Shown here: positions 54,783 through 64,000 of the stretch, one piece after another
Position numbering within the stretch: the first letter of the stretch is position 1
How the letters are laid out: each line of letters starts with the position of its first letter
NCBI RefSeq assembly: GCF_018128905.1
Contig: NZ_CP063808.1
Coordinates: 1,612,001 to 1,676,000, forward strand
Reading direction: 5' to 3'
DNA: 64,000 nucleotides
Source: Streptomyces sp. A2-16
Lineage (GTDB): Bacteria; Actinomycetota; Actinomycetes; Streptomycetales; Streptomycetaceae
The notes under the pieces: generated by a model
What the model was told of the DNA's origin: nothing
The model's database searches: none
What the model saw: only the letters and a program-made list of their open reading frames with translations
Translations under genes and position numbers: made by a program

Positions 54783-54815
54783 GTCGTGGCTGGTCGCGCA
54801 GTTCCCCGCGCCCCT
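54783..54815 (+). repeat. 33-bp core of the large repeat element, solitary copy
   Basis: These 33 bases (starting GTCGTGGCTGGTCGCGCAG) are identical to 61908-61940 and to the reverse complement of 57849-57881. Here the core stands without the rest of the element, in the 57-bp gap between the kinase stop and the convergent absC gene. It includes a small GCGCG...CGCGC hairpin that may act as a terminator. Confidence 0.75.
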
Positions 54816-56841: not shown

Positions 56842-57474
56842 TCACACGTCTCCCGCGATCGTGTTGCGCTCGCTGGGCTGGACGTACACCAGGCCGTCGC
56901 CCTCGAAGCGGATCTGGAAGGCCTCGCCGCCGCCCTCGCCCATGAACGTGCGGAACGTCACACCGGACTGGAAGGACTGGTTGAGGTTGCCCTGGTGGGC
57001 GATGTAGGCGCCGGGGTCGACCGTCAGGGGGTACTGGCGGCTGACGCGCAGCACGACCGCCGGGCCGTCCGACATGATCGCGGCCTGGCCGTGCCCTTCG
57101 ACGGTCGTCGTGAACAGCCCGTTGCCCTGTGAGGCGCCGCGCATGCCGGTGAAACTGGTGCCGGTCCTGAGGCCGGCGTCGGTCGCGAGCAGGTTGCTCG
57201 ACTCCACGTACAGCTTGTCCCCCTGGAGATTCACGAGGTTGATCTCCGAGGCGCGGTCCGCGAACCAGCACGTGCCGTGCCCCGACACCTCCATCACGGT
57301 CATCTGCTCGCCGGTGATGCGCCGGGTGACCATGCCCCGGATGCCCTCACCACCGCCGCTCATCTTCTTGAACGCCATCTGTCCGTCGTACGCGACCATC
57401 GAGCCGTTCTTCGCCTTCACGGCGTCTCCGGTCATGTCGACGGCCAGCACCTTGCTGCCTTGGAGTCGAAACAT
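56842..57474 (-). CDS. AIM24-family protein 3
   Basis: The product is 210 residues and the first gene of the three. It begins MFRLQGSKVLAVDMTGDAVKAKNGSMVAYDGQMAFKKMSGG and has EVSGHGTCWFADRASEINLVNLQGDKLYVES and VDPGAYIAHQGNLNQSF. ATG 57474 is chosen; an in-frame GTG at 57480 is possible, and neither has a strong ribosome binding site. The 5' end lies 66 bp from a large repeat element, so the operon promoter must be in or near that element. Confidence 0.88.
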   Translation of the reverse strand: MFRLQGSKVLAVDMTGDAVKAKNGSMVAYDGQMAFKKMSGGGEGIRGMVTRRITGEQMTVMEVSGHGTCWFADRASEINLVNLQGDKLYVESSNLLATDAGLRTGTSFTGMRGASQGNGLFTTTVEGHGQAAIMSDGPAVVLRVSRQYPLTVDPGAYIAHQGNLNQSFQSGVTFRTFMGEGGGEAFQIRFEGDGLVYVQPSERNTIAGDV

Positions 57475-57539
57475 CGCCACGAGGTGAAGGTAGCTGGAGG
57501 GGGGCCGTTGCGGACAGATGTGGGTGGGTTGGGGGTTGG

Positions 57540-57930
57540 GTGCGGGTTCGGTGGGGGCGGGGGTTTTGCGCCGTTCCCCGCGCCCCTGATGCCTGCGGCG
57601 CAGCTGCGGGTTCGGTGGGGGCGCGCGTAGCGCATGGGCCCCGGTGGGTGGGTCGGGGCCGGGGTGGGGGGTGTCCGTCCTCGGTCCGGCGGTTGCTGTG
57701 CCTTGAGATGTGCTCGGCAACGGACGCCGGCCGCTGCGGGCGGACACCCCCCCACCCCGTCCCCTTCCCGCCGTACGCGGCTCGCGCCCCGTCGTGCCGC
57801 GCGATCCGGCGAACGACCCGTCGTGGCGCCGGGTCACTGCAACCCCCTAGGGGCGCGGGGAACTGCGCGACCAGCCACGACGCACCCGCACCCGCCCGAC
57901 AACCGGACCCGGCACCCCCCGTAGGCGCCC
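57540..57930 (+). repeat. Large repeat element, copy 1 (inverted partner of 61860-62277)
   Basis: This 391-bp element matches the reverse complement of 61860-62277 over almost its whole length. Inside it TGCGGGTTCGGTGGGGGCG occurs twice (57541 and 57604), and two arms, GGGGTGGGGGGTGTCCG near 57671 and CGGACACCCCCC near 57741, are inverted, so the middle can fold into a long hairpin. About 25 bases at its centre differ from copy 2, and copy 1 lacks a roughly 22-bp piece present in copy 2. It fills most of the 573-bp gap between the AIM24 operon and the DUF3817 gene; no gene is supported in it. Confidence 0.85.
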
Positions 57931-58047
57931 ATACGCTCGTGACCCCCGAGCCAGGGCACGTGGGTGTGTTTGTCAGAATGGGGGAACGCTTGTGCGTTCG
58001 TTCACGAACTGCCAGACCGCCGACGTACCTCCCACCGAAGGTGACCC

Positions 58048-58392
58048 GTGGACCTCAAGACAGCCTCCGCCATCCGACGCCTCCGCCTGGTCTCCGCCCC
58101 TGAGGCGGTCTCGTTCCTGCTCCTGCTCGTCTGCTCGGTGCTGAAGCGGACCACGGACTTCAATGCCGTGCCGGTGATGGGGCGGGTTCACGCCGTCCTG
58201 TTCATCCTGTACGCGATCTTCTGGGTGGACGCCTGGGTCCGGACCAAGTGGTCCGCGAAGACCGGTATCTGGTACTTCGTGCTCTCCGTGCTGCCCACCG
58301 GTGGCTTCTTCGCCGAGCGCAAGCTCAGGCGTGAGGCCGAGGACGCGGTGATCGCCTCCCGGGCCCGCAAGGAAGGAGTGGTGAACGCATGA
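58048..58392 (+). CDS. DUF3817 family membrane protein
   Basis: The product is 114 residues with three hydrophobic segments ([30 protein letters not shown] and [19 protein letters not shown]). I recognise the actinobacterial DUF3817 family, known as the C-terminal part of some transporters and as a small free membrane protein; its role is unknown. GTG 58048 follows GAAGGTGACC. Its stop overlaps the next gene (ATGA). Confidence 0.85.
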
Positions 58393-58685
58393 TCGTCGCC
58401 TTCTCCGTGACCCCGCTCGGGGTCGGCGAGGACGTGGGGGAGTACGTCGCCGACGCGGTGCGGGTGGTTCGTGAGTCGGGGCTGCCCAACCGCACCGACG
58501 CCATGTTCACCTCGATCGAGGGTGACAGCTGGGACGAGGTGATGGATGTGGTCAAGCGTGCCGTGGCCGCCGTGGAGGCGCGGGCTCCGCGTGTCTCGCT
58601 GGTACTCAAGGCGGACATCCGTCCAGGCGTCACGGACGGTCTGACCTCCAAGGTGGAGACGGTGGAGCGGCATCTCGCCGGTTGA
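58389..58685 (+). CDS. MTH1187-family (UPF0045) thiamine-binding-like protein
   Basis: The product is 98 residues: [71 protein letters not shown]. Members of this family bind thiamine or a related small ligand in a ferredoxin-like fold and often tetramerise. No thiamine genes are near. Coupled to DUF3817 by a 4-bp overlap, and followed by a terminator. Confidence 0.88.
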
Positions 58686-58701
58686 CAGTGTTCTCCGTGT
58701 G

Positions 58702-58730
58702 AACCCCGGCCCGCGCGGGCCGGGGTTTTC
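58702..58730 (+). terminator. Terminator after the UPF0045 gene
   Basis: AACCCCGGCCCGC (58702-58714) is the complement of the following 13 bases, a perfect 26-bp palindrome, then TTTTC. It separates the two-gene unit from the TetR-controlled operon. Confidence 0.85.
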
Positions 58731-58743
58731 TTGTGTCTCACGA

Positions 58744-58772
58744 TTGAGCGATCGCTCAAAAAGGTGTACTTT
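58744..58772 (+). promoter_or_regulatory. Predicted promoter of the SRPBCC-DUF4166-TetR operon
   Basis: TTGAGC (58744-58749), 17 bases, TACTTT (58767-58772). The -35 box is the left half of operator 1 and the expected transcription start (about 58779) is just before operator 2. Confidence 0.6.
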
Positions 58773-58803
58773 CCTGTCCCGAGTGTTTGAGCAGTCGCTC
58801 AAA
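58744..58803. promoter_or_regulatory. Pair of TetR-type operators
   Basis: Operator 1, TTGAGCGATCGCTCAA (58744-58759), is a perfect 16-bp palindrome. Operator 2, TTTGAGCAGTCGCTCAAA (58786-58803), has the same half-sites around a 4-base centre. They flank the predicted promoter. The pattern TTGAGCG-CGCTCAA is typical of TetR-family regulators, and a TetR gene is third in the operon, so autorepression is likely. Confidence 0.75.
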
Positions 58804-58827
58804 TGACGAGCTCACCTGGGGGAATCA

Positions 58828-59580
58828 ATGGGGCTCTACATCGAGACACGCATCCGTGCCGATCTCGACGAGCTGTGGACGCATACGCAGGATCCGTGCC
58901 GGCACCAGCGCTGGGACCTCCGCTTCACCCGGATCACCTACCTTCCGCGCGCGGAGGGCGAGCCGCAGCGCTTCCGGTACGCCACGCGCGTGCTGCCCGG
59001 ACTCACCGTCGCCGGCACCGGGGTCTCCGCGGGGGAGCGGGAGCGCCCCGACGGCACCCGCACCTCCGCGCTGCGCTTCTCCTCCCCGCACCCCCTCTCG
59101 CTCCTCGCGGAGGGCAGCGGGTACTGGCGCTACGTCCCCGACGCCGACGGCGTCACCTTCCTCACCGGCTACGACTACCGCCCCCGCTGGGGCCGCGCCG
59201 GTGCCCTGGCCGACCGGCTGCTGTTCCGCCCGCTCATGGGCTGGGCGACGGCCTGGTCCTTCGACCGGCTGCGGCTGTGGCTGGAGCGCGGGATCACCCC
59301 GGAGCGGGCCCTGCGCAACTGGCTGGCCGAGCTGCTGGCGCGGGCCCTGATCGTCACCGGCGGCTGCGCCGGGCTCGGCCAGGAGGGGTTCCTGCGCCTG
59401 TTCGGGCCGCTGGCCGCCTCGATGGCGTACGTGTGGCCGCTGCTGCTCGCCGTCGTCATCTCGCTGGCCCTGTTCACGTCGCCCCTGCCCTGCACCCCCG
59501 CCGCCCGCCGCTGTCTGCGTCAGCCGCCCACGCGGGTGCGTGCCCCGCGTGTCCTTCGGACCCTGGAGAGCCCCCGATGA
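58828..59580 (+). CDS. SRPBCC-family protein with C-terminal membrane segment
   Basis: The product is 250 residues. The first 150 residues look like the START/Bet v1 (SRPBCC) ligand-binding fold: MGLYIETRIRADLDELWTHTQDPCRHQRWDLRFTRITYLPR, then GSGYWRYVPDADGVTFLTGYDYRPRWG. The C-terminal part has a strongly hydrophobic stretch (MAYVWPLLLAVVISLALFTSPL) and a basic end. It is probably a lipid- or polyketide-like ligand binder at the membrane; this is inference. ATG 58828 follows CTGGGGGAATCA. It overlaps the next gene by 4 bp. Confidence 0.8.
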   Translation: MGLYIETRIRADLDELWTHTQDPCRHQRWDLRFTRITYLPRAEGEPQRFRYATRVLPGLTVAGTGVSAGERERPDGTRTSALRFSSPHPLSLLAEGSGYWRYVPDADGVTFLTGYDYRPRWGRAGALADRLLFRPLMGWATAWSFDRLRLWLERGITPERALRNWLAELLARALIVTGGCAGLGQEGFLRLFGPLAASMAYVWPLLLAVVISLALFTSPLPCTPAARRCLRQPPTRVRAPRVLRTLESPR

Positions 59581-60266
59581 CGTCGCCCGCCTCGATGTTC
59601 CGCACCGTCATGGGCGTCGACTTCGACCGTCTGCACCCGCAGCTCCAGCGCCGCTTCTCGGTCGGCCTGGCGGCGGGCGAGGCCTGTACCGGCCGGGGCG
59701 TGATGGACCGCATCTGGCACGGCGGAGCCTTCGTGAAGCCCTTCCTGGCCCTCGGCGCGACCCGCAACATCCTGGTGCCGAGACCGGGGCGGAACGTGCC
59801 GTTCGTGATCGAGAACGTGCCCTACGTGGACACCCACGGCCGTGAGACGGTGACCTTCGTGCGCACCTTCCGCCTGCCCGGCCGTCCACGCCGTTTCGAC
59901 GCCCAGATGGTGCTGAGCCCCAAGGGCGACCGCATCCTCGACTACCTCGGCACCCACCAGCACCTGGCCAGCGAGCTCCACTTCCGCGCGGAGCCCGACG
60001 GCTCGCTGCTGATCCGCTCCGGGGAGCACCGGTTCCGGGAGGGTGTGGTGGATGTCCGGGTGCCCGAGCTGATCGGCGCGACGGCCGAGGTGCGGGAGTC
60101 GTACGACGAGCGGGCCGGGCGTTTCCGCATCCGGGTCCGGGTCGTCAACCGCCGCTTCGGCCCGCTCTTCGGCTACGAGGGCTCCTTCGAGGCGACGTAC
60201 ACCGACATCGCGACCTGCGGAGTCCGCCCCGGCCTGCGCCCCGTCCGTGAGGAGGCGCGCGCATGA
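59577..60266 (+). CDS. DUF4166 family protein
   Basis: The product is 229 residues: MFRTVMGVDFDRLHPQLQRRFSVGL, then GVMDRIWHGGAFVKPFLALGATRNILVPRPG and VPFVIENVPYVDTHGRETVTFVRTF. I recognise DUF4166, often found with SRPBCC or saccharopine-dehydrogenase-like proteins; function unknown. There is no signal peptide. It overlaps its neighbours on both sides (ATGA starts), the mark of a tightly coupled operon. Confidence 0.82.
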   Translation: MTSPASMFRTVMGVDFDRLHPQLQRRFSVGLAAGEACTGRGVMDRIWHGGAFVKPFLALGATRNILVPRPGRNVPFVIENVPYVDTHGRETVTFVRTFRLPGRPRRFDAQMVLSPKGDRILDYLGTHQHLASELHFRAEPDGSLLIRSGEHRFREGVVDVRVPELIGATAEVRESYDERAGRFRIRVRVVNRRFGPLFGYEGSFEATYTDIATCGVRPGLRPVREEARA

Positions 60267-60913
60267 GCCCCGAGTCCGCCAAGGCGTTGGAGACGCGGTC
60301 CAGACTCCTGGAGGGCGCCCTGCGCACCCTCACCGAACAGGGCATCGCCAAGACCTCGGCGCGCACGGTCGCCGCGGCCGCCGGGGTCAACCAGGCGCTG
60401 GTCTTCTACCACTTCGGCACCGTCGACGAACTCCTGGCCGCCGCCTGCCGCTACGGCGCGGAGCGCGCGGTGGCCCGCTACCGTGACCGCCTCGCCGCCG
60501 TGACCTCCCTCTCCGAACTCCTCGCGGTGGGGCGGCGGGTCCACGAGGAGGAGCGGGCCGGAGGACATGTCGCCCTCCTCGGCCAGCTGCTGGCGGGCGC
60601 CCAGACCCACGCCACCCTCGGCCCGGCCACCGCGGCGGGCCTGGAGCTGTGGATCGCCGAGATCGAGAAGGTCCTCACCAGAGTCCTCGCGGCCACGCCC
60701 TTCGGCGAGTTCGCCGACCCCGCGGGCCTGGCCCGGGCGGTGGCCGCGTCGTTCGTGGGCATCGAGCTGTACGAAGGGGTCGACGAGGCCGGGGCCACCG
60801 CGGCCCTCGACGCCCTGGAGCAGCTCGGCGCGCTCGTCGCCGCGCTGGAGGACCTGGGCCCGGTCGCCCAGCGGGCGGTGCGCCACCATCTCCGCAGGAC
60901 GGGCCGCCGCTGA
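60263..60913 (+). CDS. TetR-family transcriptional repressor
   Basis: The product is 216 residues. The N-terminal HTH is RLLEGALRTLTEQGIAKTSARTVAAAAGVNQALVFYHFGTVDELLAAAC, followed by a helical ligand-binding domain. It is inferred to bind the two palindromes at 58744-58803 and repress its own operon. The inducer is unknown; the SRPBCC and DUF4166 products suggest a hydrophobic compound. The start overlaps the DUF4166 stop. Confidence 0.92.
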   Translation: MSPESAKALETRSRLLEGALRTLTEQGIAKTSARTVAAAAGVNQALVFYHFGTVDELLAAACRYGAERAVARYRDRLAAVTSLSELLAVGRRVHEEERAGGHVALLGQLLAGAQTHATLGPATAAGLELWIAEIEKVLTRVLAATPFGEFADPAGLARAVAASFVGIELYEGVDEAGATAALDALEQLGALVAALEDLGPVAQRAVRHHLRRTGRR

Positions 60914-60943
60914 CCCGGCCCACCCCCGACCCGAGAGGACCCC

Positions 60944-61843
60944 ATGCCCGACAGCCTTTACGAGATCCTGGACGACCGCTTCCGGCCCTGCACCAACGGC
61001 GACAGCAGGCTCGAGGTCCTCCACGACGACTGCCGTTGGGCCGAGGGGCCCCTGTACCTGCCCGCGTGGCGCCAGCTGATCTGGAGCGACATCCCGAACG
61101 ACCGCCTCCTGCGCTGGGACGAGGCCACCGGCGCGGTCGGCGTCTTCCGCACCCCGGCGGGCAACACCAACGGCAACACCGTCGATCCCCGGGGCCGTCT
61201 CGTCAGCTGCGAACAGGGCAACCGCCGCGTCACCCGCACCGAGCCCAACGGCACGGTGACCGTCCTGGCCGAGCACTTCCAGGGCAAGCGCCTCAACAGC
61301 CCGAACGACGCCGTCGTACGCTCCGACGGCACGATCTGGTTCTCCGACCCGGACTTCGGCATCCTCAGCGACTACGAGGGGCATCGGGCCGAGTCCGAGA
61401 TCGGCGCGTGCCATGTGTACCGGATCGATCCGGCCACGGGCGAGGTGTCCCTTGCCGCGGAGGGGCTGGACGGCCCCAACGGAGTGCTCCTGTCCCCCGA
61501 CGAGCGACGCCTGTACGTCTCCGACTCGAGGGCTGCCCGGATCCACCGGTACGACATCGACGCCGACGGCACGCTCTCGGGCGGCACGGTCTTCGCCCAG
61601 GCCCCCCAAGGCGTCCACTTCGACAACATCCGCTTCGACGACGAGGGCCGACTCTGGGCTGCCGCCCTCGCCGACGGCATCCACTGCTACGCCCCCGACG
61701 GCACCCTGATCGGCCGCGTCCGGGTCCCCGAGCCGGTGGCCAACGTGACATTCGGCGGCCCCAAGGGAAACCGCCTGTTCATCGCAGCCACGACCTCCCT
61801 CTACTCCGCGGTGATGTCGGTGACGGGAGCGGCAAGGGTGTGA
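60944..61843 (+). CDS. SMP-30/gluconolactonase-family hydrolase
   Basis: Calcium- or zinc-dependent lactonase of the six-bladed propeller fold, 299 residues. Marks: CRWAEGPLYLPAWRQLIWSDIPNDRLLRWDE (metal-binding Glu in AEGP), NTNGNTVDPRGRLVSCEQ, LNSPNDAVVRSDGTIWFSDPDFG (metal-binding Asn) and GPNGVLLSPDERRLYVSDS (metal-binding Asp). It may open sugar or other lactones. ATG 60944 is 30 bp after the TetR gene and probably belongs to the same operon. The large repeat element copy 2 begins 16 bp after its stop. Confidence 0.9.
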   Translation: MPDSLYEILDDRFRPCTNGDSRLEVLHDDCRWAEGPLYLPAWRQLIWSDIPNDRLLRWDEATGAVGVFRTPAGNTNGNTVDPRGRLVSCEQGNRRVTRTEPNGTVTVLAEHFQGKRLNSPNDAVVRSDGTIWFSDPDFGILSDYEGHRAESEIGACHVYRIDPATGEVSLAAEGLDGPNGVLLSPDERRLYVSDSRAARIHRYDIDADGTLSGGTVFAQAPQGVHFDNIRFDDEGRLWAAALADGIHCYAPDGTLIGRVRVPEPVANVTFGGPKGNRLFIAATTSLYSAVMSVTGAARV

Positions 61844-61859
61844 CTGCGCTGGGTCGGAG

Positions 61860-62277
61860 GGGCGCCTATGGGGGTGCCGGGTCCGGTTGTCGGGCGGGTG
61901 CGGGTGCGTCGTGGCTGGTCGCGCAGTTCCCCGCGCCCCTAGGGGGTTGCAGTGACCCGGCGCCACGACGGGCCGTTCGCCGGATCGCGCGGGACCACGG
62001 GCCGCAAGCCGCGTACGGCGGCAAGGGGACGGGGTGGGGGGTGTCCGCCCGCAGCGGCCGGCGTCCGGCATCCCGTACTGCTGGATCGACAGCTACCGCC
62101 GGACCGAGGACGGATACCCCCCACCCCGGCCCCGACCCCACCACCGGGGCCCATGCGCTACGCACGCCCCCACCGAACCCGCAGCTGCGCCGCAGGCATC
62201 CAGGGGCGCGGGACTGTGTCCATATGCGGCTCCGCCGCGTGGGCGCAAAAACCCCCGCCCCCACCGAACCCGCACCC
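61860..62277 (-). repeat. Large repeat element, copy 2 (inverted partner of 57540-57930)
   Basis: This 418-bp element is the reverse complement of copy 1 with few differences outside two spots: a central segment near 62066-62092 that is unrelated, and an extra piece of about 22 bp near 62215-62243. It contains the same 33-bp core (61908-61940) and the long inverted GGGGTGGGGGGT arms. It fills most of the 537-bp gap between the SMP-30 gene and the glycosyltransferase gene. No gene is supported in it. Confidence 0.85.
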
Positions 62278-62380
62278 GCATGGCCGCCCCCAACTCGCCC
62301 CACCCCAGAATCTCCACTTTCGTGTGGATATCGAACCCCTAGCAAAGGCTCGAGAACTCCTCACTCAACCGGAGGGCGCC

Positions 62381-64000
62381 GTGCGGCCGGAGGGCTACGA
62401 CTACGACACCTACAGCCACCTCGCCGGGCCGCTCACGGAACCGGACGGTTCGGCGTACCAGGTGCGGTACACCTCACTCCTCTCCCGCGAACCCCGCCGA
62501 ATACGCGCCGTCCTGCTGATGAGCCTCGCCCCCCTGCTCACGGCCGTACTCCTCGTCTACCTCGTCTGGCCCACCCACTGGGTGGAGCGCGAGGGCGGCC
62601 CGCGGTGGATGGTCCACCTGGACATCGTGATGCTCATAGCCATCGGCCTCATCGAACTGTTCATGGTGGTCAACGTCGTCTCCGTCGCCCACGCCACCCT
62701 CGTGGCCCGCGACCCGATCCCCGTCGTCCCCGAGACCGGCACCCGCGTCGCCTTCCTCACCACGTACGTCCCCGGCAAGGAACCCCTCTCGATGGTCCGC
62801 GCCACACTGGAAGGCGCCACGAGGGTCACCCACACCGGCCCCCTGGACGTCTGGCTCCTCGACGAGGGCGACGACGAGCAGGCCAAGGCCCTGTGCGCGG
62901 AGCTCGGCGTCCGCCACTTCACCCGGCACGGCGTCCCGGAGTGGAACAGGGCCAAGGGCGTCCACAAGGGCCACACCAAGCACGGCAACTACAACGCGTG
63001 GATCGCGATGCACGGCGGGGAGTACGACTTCTTCGCCTGCGTCGACACCGACCACGTCCCGCTCCCCGCCTTCCTGGAGCGGATGATGGGCTACTTCCGC
63101 GACCCGGACGTCGCGTTCGTCGTGGGACCGCAGGTCTACGGCAACTACCACCACCCCGTCACCAAGGCCGCCGAGTCGCAGCAGTTCCTCTTCCACGCCC
63201 TGATCCAGCGGGCCGGCAACCGCTACCGCTCACCCATGTTCGTCGGCACCAACAACGTCGTACGCATCGCCGCCATCCAGCAGATCGGCGGCCTCCAGGA
63301 CTCCGTCACCGAGGACATGGCCACCGGCTTCGAGCTGCACCGCCACCGCAACCCGGTCACCGGGCGCCACTGGCGTTCCGTCTACACCCCCGACGTCCTC
63401 GCCGTCGGCGAGGGCCCCGCCTCCTGGACCGACTTCTTCACCCAGCAGCTGCGCTGGTCGCGGGGGACGTACGAGACGCTCTTCAAGCAGTACTGGAAGG
63501 CGCCTTTCAGCATGCCGCCCGGGCGCCTGTTCTCGTACACGCTCATGCTCGTCTACTACCCGATGACGGCCGTCAACTGGCTTCTCGGCATCCTCAGTTG
63601 TGTGCTCTTCCTGTGGTTCGGCGCCTCCGGCACCCAGGTCGCCGCCTCCGTCTGGCTGATGCTCTACAGCGACGCGGCCGCCCTGCAGATCGCCCTCTAC
63701 CTCTGGAACCGCCGCCACAACGTCTCCCCGCACGAGCCGGAGGGCTCCGGGGGCCTGGCCGGCATGGCGATGTCGGCGCTGTCCGCCCCGATCTACCTCA
63801 AGTCCTTCGGCGAGGCGCTCGTCAGGAGGCCCAGCCGTTTCGTGGTCACCCCCAAGGGCGGCGACGCCAGCACCGACCGGCTGCTGACCTTCCGTATCCA
63901 CCTGTTCTGGGCGTTCGTCCTCGCGACCTCCCTGGGCGCCTCGGTCGTTCTCGGCCACACCCACGCGGCCATGCGCACCTGGGCGGTCCTCGCGACGGCG
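62381..64000 (+). CDS. Processive GT2 glycosyltransferase (cellulose synthase/hyaluronan synthase-like), 3' cut by window
   Basis: Membrane glycosyltransferase, 540 residues seen with no stop before the window end. Two N-terminal membrane helices (about 45-70 and 82-112), then a cytoplasmic GT2 domain with the catalytic set: DEGDD (161-165), DTDH (D222, D224), TED (310-312, catalytic base D312) and QQLRW (355-359). More membrane helices follow from about 385. This set marks polymer-making synthases such as cellulose, chitin or hyaluronan synthases; the product is unknown. GTG 62381 has GGAGG at 62371-62375. The remaining C-terminus is outside the window. Confidence 0.88.
   Translation, partial: MRPEGYDYDTYSHLAGPLTEPDGSAYQVRYTSLLSREPRRIRAVLLMSLAPLLTAVLLVYLVWPTHWVEREGGPRWMVHLDIVMLIAIGLIELFMVVNVVSVAHATLVARDPIPVVPETGTRVAFLTTYVPGKEPLSMVRATLEGATRVTHTGPLDVWLLDEGDDEQAKALCAELGVRHFTRHGVPEWNRAKGVHKGHTKHGNYNAWIAMHGGEYDFFACVDTDHVPLPAFLERMMGYFRDPDVAFVVGPQVYGNYHHPVTKAAESQQFLFHALIQRAGNRYRSPMFVGTNNVVRIAAIQQIGGLQDSVTEDMATGFELHRHRNPVTGRHWRSVYTPDVLAVGEGPASWTDFFTQQLRWSRGTYETLFKQYWKAPFSMPPGRLFSYTLMLVYYPMTAVNWLLGILSCVLFLWFGASGTQVAASVWLMLYSDAAALQIALYLWNRRHNVSPHEPEGSGGLAGMAMSALSAPIYLKSFGEALVRRPSRFVVTPKGGDASTDRLLTFRIHLFWAFVLATSLGASVVLGHTHAAMRTWAVLATA

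Follow-up and report, generated by a model that had tools for sequence, protein, structure and literature searches.

The window analysed here, a 64,000-nt stretch of the Streptomyces sp. A2-16 chromosome, contains two inverted copies of a composite element of about 0.4 kb, the heart of which is a hairpin unit. Both copies lie between predicted genes, in agreement with the non-coding position given in the preliminary description, and their features and those of the associated small repeats are as follows (window coordinates).

57590..57642, plus strand: left module of copy 1, starting at TGCCTGCGGC
57643..57784, plus strand: hairpin unit of copy 1 (covariance model R1 match, G000:C1:1669643-1669784)
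57692..57724, plus strand: core (apical region) of copy 1, which looks unconstrained
62005..62145, minus strand: hairpin unit of copy 2 (covariance model match, G000:C1:1674005-1674145)
62064..62096, minus strand: core of copy 2, which looks unconstrained
57850..57869, plus strand: small repeat GGGGCGCGGGGAACTGCGCG beside copy 1
61920..61939, minus strand: small repeat GGGGCGCGGGGAACTGCGCG beside copy 2
57567..57586, minus strand: small repeat GGGGCGCGGGGAACTGCGCG, inverted and with 2 mismatches, on the opposite flank of copy 1
54795-54814, minus strand: small palindromic repeat GGGGCGCGGGGAACTGCGCG

The inverted near-identity of positions 57540-57930 and 61860-62277 reported in the preliminary description was confirmed, the arms being 94-100% complementary: 97% over 172 nt (57748-57919 / 61870-62041), 94% over 117 nt (57583-57699 / 62089-62205), and 100% between 57538-57567 and 62248-62277. 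As it had also stated, the outer parts match, including the hairpin-forming arms, with the inner arms of the two copies identical, and the centres are unrelated, the core being TTGCTGTGCCTTGAGATGTGCTCGGCAAC in copy 1 (within 57692-57724) and TAGCTGTCGATCCAGCAGTACGGGATGCC in copy 2 (within 62064-62096, minus strand). The extra piece noticed in one copy corresponds to 27 additional nt in the outer left part of copy 2 (82 vs 55 nt).

The sequence TGCCTGCGGC, with which the left module begins, is the start point of many copies in the same genome, and the module is less conserved across the genus than the hairpin unit. The small palindromic repeat GGGGCGCGGGGAACTGCGCG is a separate family in this genome: it occurs within 400 nt downstream of the hairpin in 24 of the 25 copies of this genome and in none of 169 control windows, is also present away from hairpins, and is absent from both sides in 125 of 160 copies of other genomes. 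To the right of the hairpin, a variable number of GC-rich repeats of about 30 nt, similar to GTGCCGCGCGGTCCGGCGAACGGCCCGTC, was seen by eye; they sit between the hairpin and GGGGCGCGGGGAACTGCGCG (own copies L009-L020).

An exact-arm pattern identified 25 hairpin copies in the A2-16 chromosome (13 forward and 12 reverse), and the reversed control pattern gave 0 matches in the same genome. A covariance model built from 55 copies, which does not require the arm identity on which the pattern depends, also revealed 25 units, and the 22 model places among the matches listed were all within the 25 of the pattern. The 40 specified arm positions are identical in all 25 copies, and the cores differ. The window pair, for which the preliminary description had suggested a search for relatives, is thus not alone in its genome.

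Beyond this genome, blastn gave a match of any kind, many partial, in 23 of 61 Streptomyces genomes, and the element is absent from most. A pattern that counted a single arm type and missed the window's own matched in 40 of 295 genomes. With the covariance model, run with stricter filters under which weak matches may be lost, the family sample yielded matches in 33 of 150 genomes and 4 of 17 genera (up to 18 matches outside Streptomyces), and the class sample yielded 4 of 148 genomes, all of them Streptomyces (1 of 81 genera). A scan of named genomes returned at least 119 stretches, those among the matches listed comprising 118 from Streptomyces and 1 from Kitasatospora. Inverted hairpin pairs less than 2 kb apart also occur in another genus (G633:C1:5396252(-)/5398015(+)), the same other-genus layout being found at G641:C1:6331696(-)/6333541(+). 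An origin from plasmids or phages was rejected, as neither the plasmid nor the phage collection had a hairpin match at E 1e-5. The hairpins are apparently an undescribed, intergenic family in Streptomyces and close relatives; no description of them was found among the matches listed for the open-access literature, outside which most subscription journals lie, or in the available portions of a report on novel RNAs (PMC11109978) and of a transcriptome study of S. coelicolor (PMC4681348).

Each unit is a hairpin of about 140 nt with compensatory stem changes, and the predicted RNA fold of copy 1 had z = -6.4 (plus strand) and z = -4.2 (minus strand). RNAalifold analysis of the 55-copy alignment (4 chance rows removed, and the genuine row L259 also left out) revealed 19 pairs, 5 of which show changes on both sides that preserve the pair, as in column 29/124 (GC in 48, UA in 5, and AU in 2 copies). 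Moreover, 20 copies of two other genera retain TCCTCG (20/20), CTGCGGG (19/20), and recognisable outer feet, and their distal stem differs in sequence yet remains mostly self-complementary (e.g., ACTGCGCAC/GTGCGCAGT and ACGACGAAC/GTTCGTCGT). These compensatory changes and re-paired distal stems show that the folded form has been kept by evolution.

The core behaves otherwise. Between species, the DUF3817 and SMP-30 loci (15 and 10 pairs) showed identities of 0.92-0.95 for the arms, 0.61-0.70 for the cores, and 0.58-0.71 for the spacers. Since the core differs about as much as the neighbouring spacer while the arms are 92-95% alike, the loop looks unconstrained on these comparisons, rather than being a swapped cassette. 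As such, the preliminary description was right about a structured, multi-copy family in which a conserved frame encloses a variable core, with a centre more variable than the frame on wider alignment, whereas its proposal of an exchangeable loop was not upheld. Core lengths of 34, 35, 37, 38, and 39 do not keep a reading frame, and a coding role was therefore rejected; short words are over-represented in the cores. In addition, Rfam covariance models had no match at the hairpins within window positions 57000-63000, and the sole match at E<=1, a riboswitch model at 60630-60724, was taken as chance (E 0.038, 23.3 bits against a cut-off of 59).

On the chromosome, 69 of the 71 copies first scored sit between predicted genes. 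The dnaA gene lies at 1.8 kb of this assembly, so that the own copies are ori-centred, and a location in the chromosome arms was rejected on this ground. The ori-distal 40% or so of this chromosome (G000:C1 about 2.7-6.7 Mb) carries no copies, and among the copies listed for 21 genomes, 5 of 242 are located beyond 0.7 of the half-chromosome relative to dnaA. For the 166 of 185 copies with both neighbours scored, the gene context was convergent in 62, << in 52, >> in 27, and divergent in 25. The prevalence of convergent and the rarity of divergent contexts would fit a role as transcription terminators or as mRNA 3'-end hairpins serving both genes of a convergent pair, but the contexts are even in the own genome (7, 7, 6, and 5), conservation of the sequence and of the asymmetric internal loop goes further than stem strength would require, and by eye no U-tract follows the stem, the consensus there being CGTCCCCTTCCC, which leaves this function quite improbable. 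Also, no bias relative to the neighbouring genes was detected in the own genome, with the hairpin on the strand of the left neighbour in 13 and of the right neighbour in 11 of 25 copies.

The two strands are not equivalent. Two near-invariant U-G stem pairs are present on the plus strand (55/55 and 54/55), which folded better in 129 of 185 copies (193 fuzzy matches minus 8) with RNA parameters, in conflict with the DNA parameters, under which it did so in 47 of 185. Furthermore, the plus strand is co-directional with replication in 173 of the 242 copies listed, a count in which shared-site copies are not independent and to which G609 contributes no listed place; the proportion is 21 of 25 in the own genome and exceeds one half in 19 of 21 genomes, with G136 (4/9) and G534 (2/4) as exceptions. 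Expressed genes are often co-directional with replication, and the U-G pairs, the better RNA fold, and the co-direction would all be consistent with small structured RNA genes on the plus strand, the copies of which would coevolve together with a genome-specific partner. Such a role is nonetheless improbable: no promoter or terminator was apparent by eye, no Rfam match was obtained, and the homogenised, unconstrained core (see below) would not be explained by coevolution with a trans factor.

The history of the window pair could be followed at its two loci. The hairpin of the DUF3817 locus has a counterpart in G234, G140, G221, G291, and G313, in each case with unchanged orientation, and a short hairpin-free intergenic region is found there in G192, G009, G314, and G124. 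The SMP-30 locus carries the hairpin in G221, G234, G291, and G313 and a degenerate copy in G141 (36 bits, E 3.6e-5), and no hairpin was found in the SMP-30 locus stretches from G140, G068, and G192, the last being not syntenic with the DUF3817 locus of G192. As the pair is common to G221, G234, G291, and G313, it is older than these species. In the preliminary description, the inverted layout was thought to allow inversion of the 3.9-kb segment between the copies, a proposal consistent with inverted arms that are 97% and 94% alike and about 4 kb apart. However, the pair is syntenic and uninverted, with the same gene orientation, in all four relatives that have both copies, and it represents only two of the 25 copies, so that an invertible segment is not supported and is considered highly improbable. 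In G007, a copy lies just past the UPF0045 gene (L134, 1308-1448), at a site neighbouring but different from the DUF3817 one, and the AIM24-DUF3817 gap there is about 100 nt.

Sites were regarded as shared when, in an inter-genome pair of copies, the two nearest genes to the left and the two nearest to the right each included one or more with a match (>=60% identity) on the same side and strand. Among 16,600 inter-genome copy pairs, 100 were at shared sites in the same arrangement and 5 in the reverse one, compared with a rough chance expectation of about 5 (assuming 1 in 3500). The 100 pairs represent 33 sites and 92 copies, and 13 of the 25 own-genome sites have a counterpart in another genome. 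Distances to the flanking genes agreed only moderately between orthologs (rho 0.53 left and 0.32 right). The own copies L018 and L233 are reversed relative to L091 and L250 against conserved genes on both sides, indicating that single elements can change orientation or reinsert.

Despite these fixed sites, copies resemble their genome-mates. Paralogs within a genome were more alike than orthologs in 129 of 134 comparisons (means 0.906 vs 0.796), which are not independent, as they derive from 33 sites and 92 copies; 65 of the 99 genome labels have a single copy in the set and no paralogs to compare, and some genomes may carry two labels. The internal-loop type differs in 44 of the 100 shared-site pairs. 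In the middle of the core, identity was 0.548 for orthologs, 0.761 for same-genome paralogs, and 0.490 for random inter-genome pairs, and the paralog excess was nearly gone at +90..+180 downstream (0.567 vs 0.547), fading within about 100 nt. In a tree of 106 copies, the genome label required 38 changes (minimum 30; shuffles 74-81, with 0 of 200 reaching 38), and on the shared-site copies 33 changes (minimum 29; shuffles 46-49), whereas the site label, for which 62 of the 92 shared-site copies were used, required 53 (shuffles 50-56, with 112 of 200 at or below). Within the limits of this tree, which was restricted to genomes represented by more than one copy in the set and does not include the close relatives G234, G140, G291, and G313, hairpin sequences cluster by genome and a site signal is not detectable. 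At the locus of the close relatives, the likeness of orthologs (0.83-0.88) comes close to that of paralogs (0.90).

Of the processes that could produce this pattern, concerted evolution at fixed sites, through short gene conversion together with selection on the fold, fits the sequence comparisons best, with a probability of roughly 0.55. In this model, a copy would keep its chromosomal position, but its sequence would be replaced, time and again, by that of other copies in its genome. The conversion tracts would be short and centre on the hairpin, with breaks or gaps arising at the palindrome as the probable trigger. The folded form would in addition be under selection, as a cell component would putatively recognise it, either as RNA or as single-stranded DNA. 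A trans factor with which the copies coevolve could explain some of the within-genome likeness, but, since the core is homogenised too, a trans-acting partner alone would be insufficient. Similarly, repeated reinsertion could account for part of it but fits less well, because each event would need to hit an intergenic region already used and restore the earlier orientation.

Reinsertion is central to the possibility, raised in the preliminary description, that the hairpins are a non-autonomous mobile element (REPIN- or MITE-like) that depends on a putative trans-acting transposase and is lost and reinserted at preferred intergenic sites. Consistent with mobility, one locus is empty in some species and occupied in others, 5 pairs are reversed against conserved flanks, presence across genomes is patchy, and placement is intergenic, with divergent gene pairs the rarest context (25 of 166 scored). 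However, shared-site orientation is the same in 100 pairs and opposite in 5, so that sites are mainly fixed, and no mobile partner was found. Y1_Tnp (PF01797; RAYT/IS200 type) had 0 matches in this genome and none in 13 of the 18 element-bearing genomes searched; of 14 genomes selected for absence of the element, 3 had a match. A RAYT/IS200 mover was rejected, as no Y1 transposase was found in this genome. Clustering of 592 neighbour proteins of the 185 copies likewise revealed no recurrent adjacent transposase or partner gene, the 25 largest clusters (by eye) being orthologous host genes or a broad transporter family, and no match was obtained in the phage and plasmid collections. Mobility is supported only in part, and a mobile element of this kind appears rather improbable. 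Another tentative reading, of similarly low probability, is a selfish or semi-selfish hairpin replicator. It would need no transposase to persist, because hairpin-triggered gene conversion would let it overwrite related hairpins at fixed sites, and a host factor would recognise the folded strand.

Enterobacterial BIMEs, like the Streptomyces hairpins, form a composite mosaic of palindromic units near gene 3' ends, although the two differ in sequence and size. By analogy, the hairpin family appears to work like REP/BIME/REPIN repeats. REPINs are REP doublets that form hairpins (Bertels and Rainey 2011, PMC3116915) and, in the accessible portion of that report, likewise comprise dispersed extragenic hairpins with two highly conserved halves, a less conserved spacer, and compensatory changes. 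The Streptomyces hairpins differ from REPINs, as far as that portion extends, in having arms that are longer in the conserved part and sites common to species without a site signal in the sequence; as no RAYT/Y1 transposase was found in this genome, REPIN membership fails despite the REPIN-like anatomy.

By eye, copy 1 has GTAG about 45 nt upstream of the arm and CGTC at the right foot. Like the GTAG- and CGTC-tagged REP superfamilies in the available part of PMC3733652, the hairpins are palindromic repeats of uneven taxonomic range, and the CGTC REP class is described there as also having no dedicated transposase. Unlike in the Streptomyces hairpins, stems in the tagged REPs measure 5-13 bp and loops 2-20 bp (table in PMC3733652), and neither streptomyces nor actinobacteri appears as a word in the main text of that paper as available. 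For IS200/IS605-type single-strand elements, the accessible portion of PMC6006769 ties hairpins to the lagging-strand template, comparable to the replication-strand bias observed here; the present hairpins differ in that no transposase was found in this genome and folding with DNA parameters does not favour the plus strand. The same source surveys Y1 transposases and, in that portion, reports a single subclass from Actinobacteridae.

The new point is the mode of evolution, in which shared sites are fixed, yet copies are alike within a genome. Concerted evolution is well known from rRNA and from tandem arrays; here it concerns about 25 short repeats across much of a chromosome, many of them at cross-species sites and without a detectable site signal. 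A REPIN-like population without a RAYT raises the question of how such repeats persist, and the hairpin family offers a naturally occurring system for measuring ectopic gene conversion in a genus of antibiotic producers.
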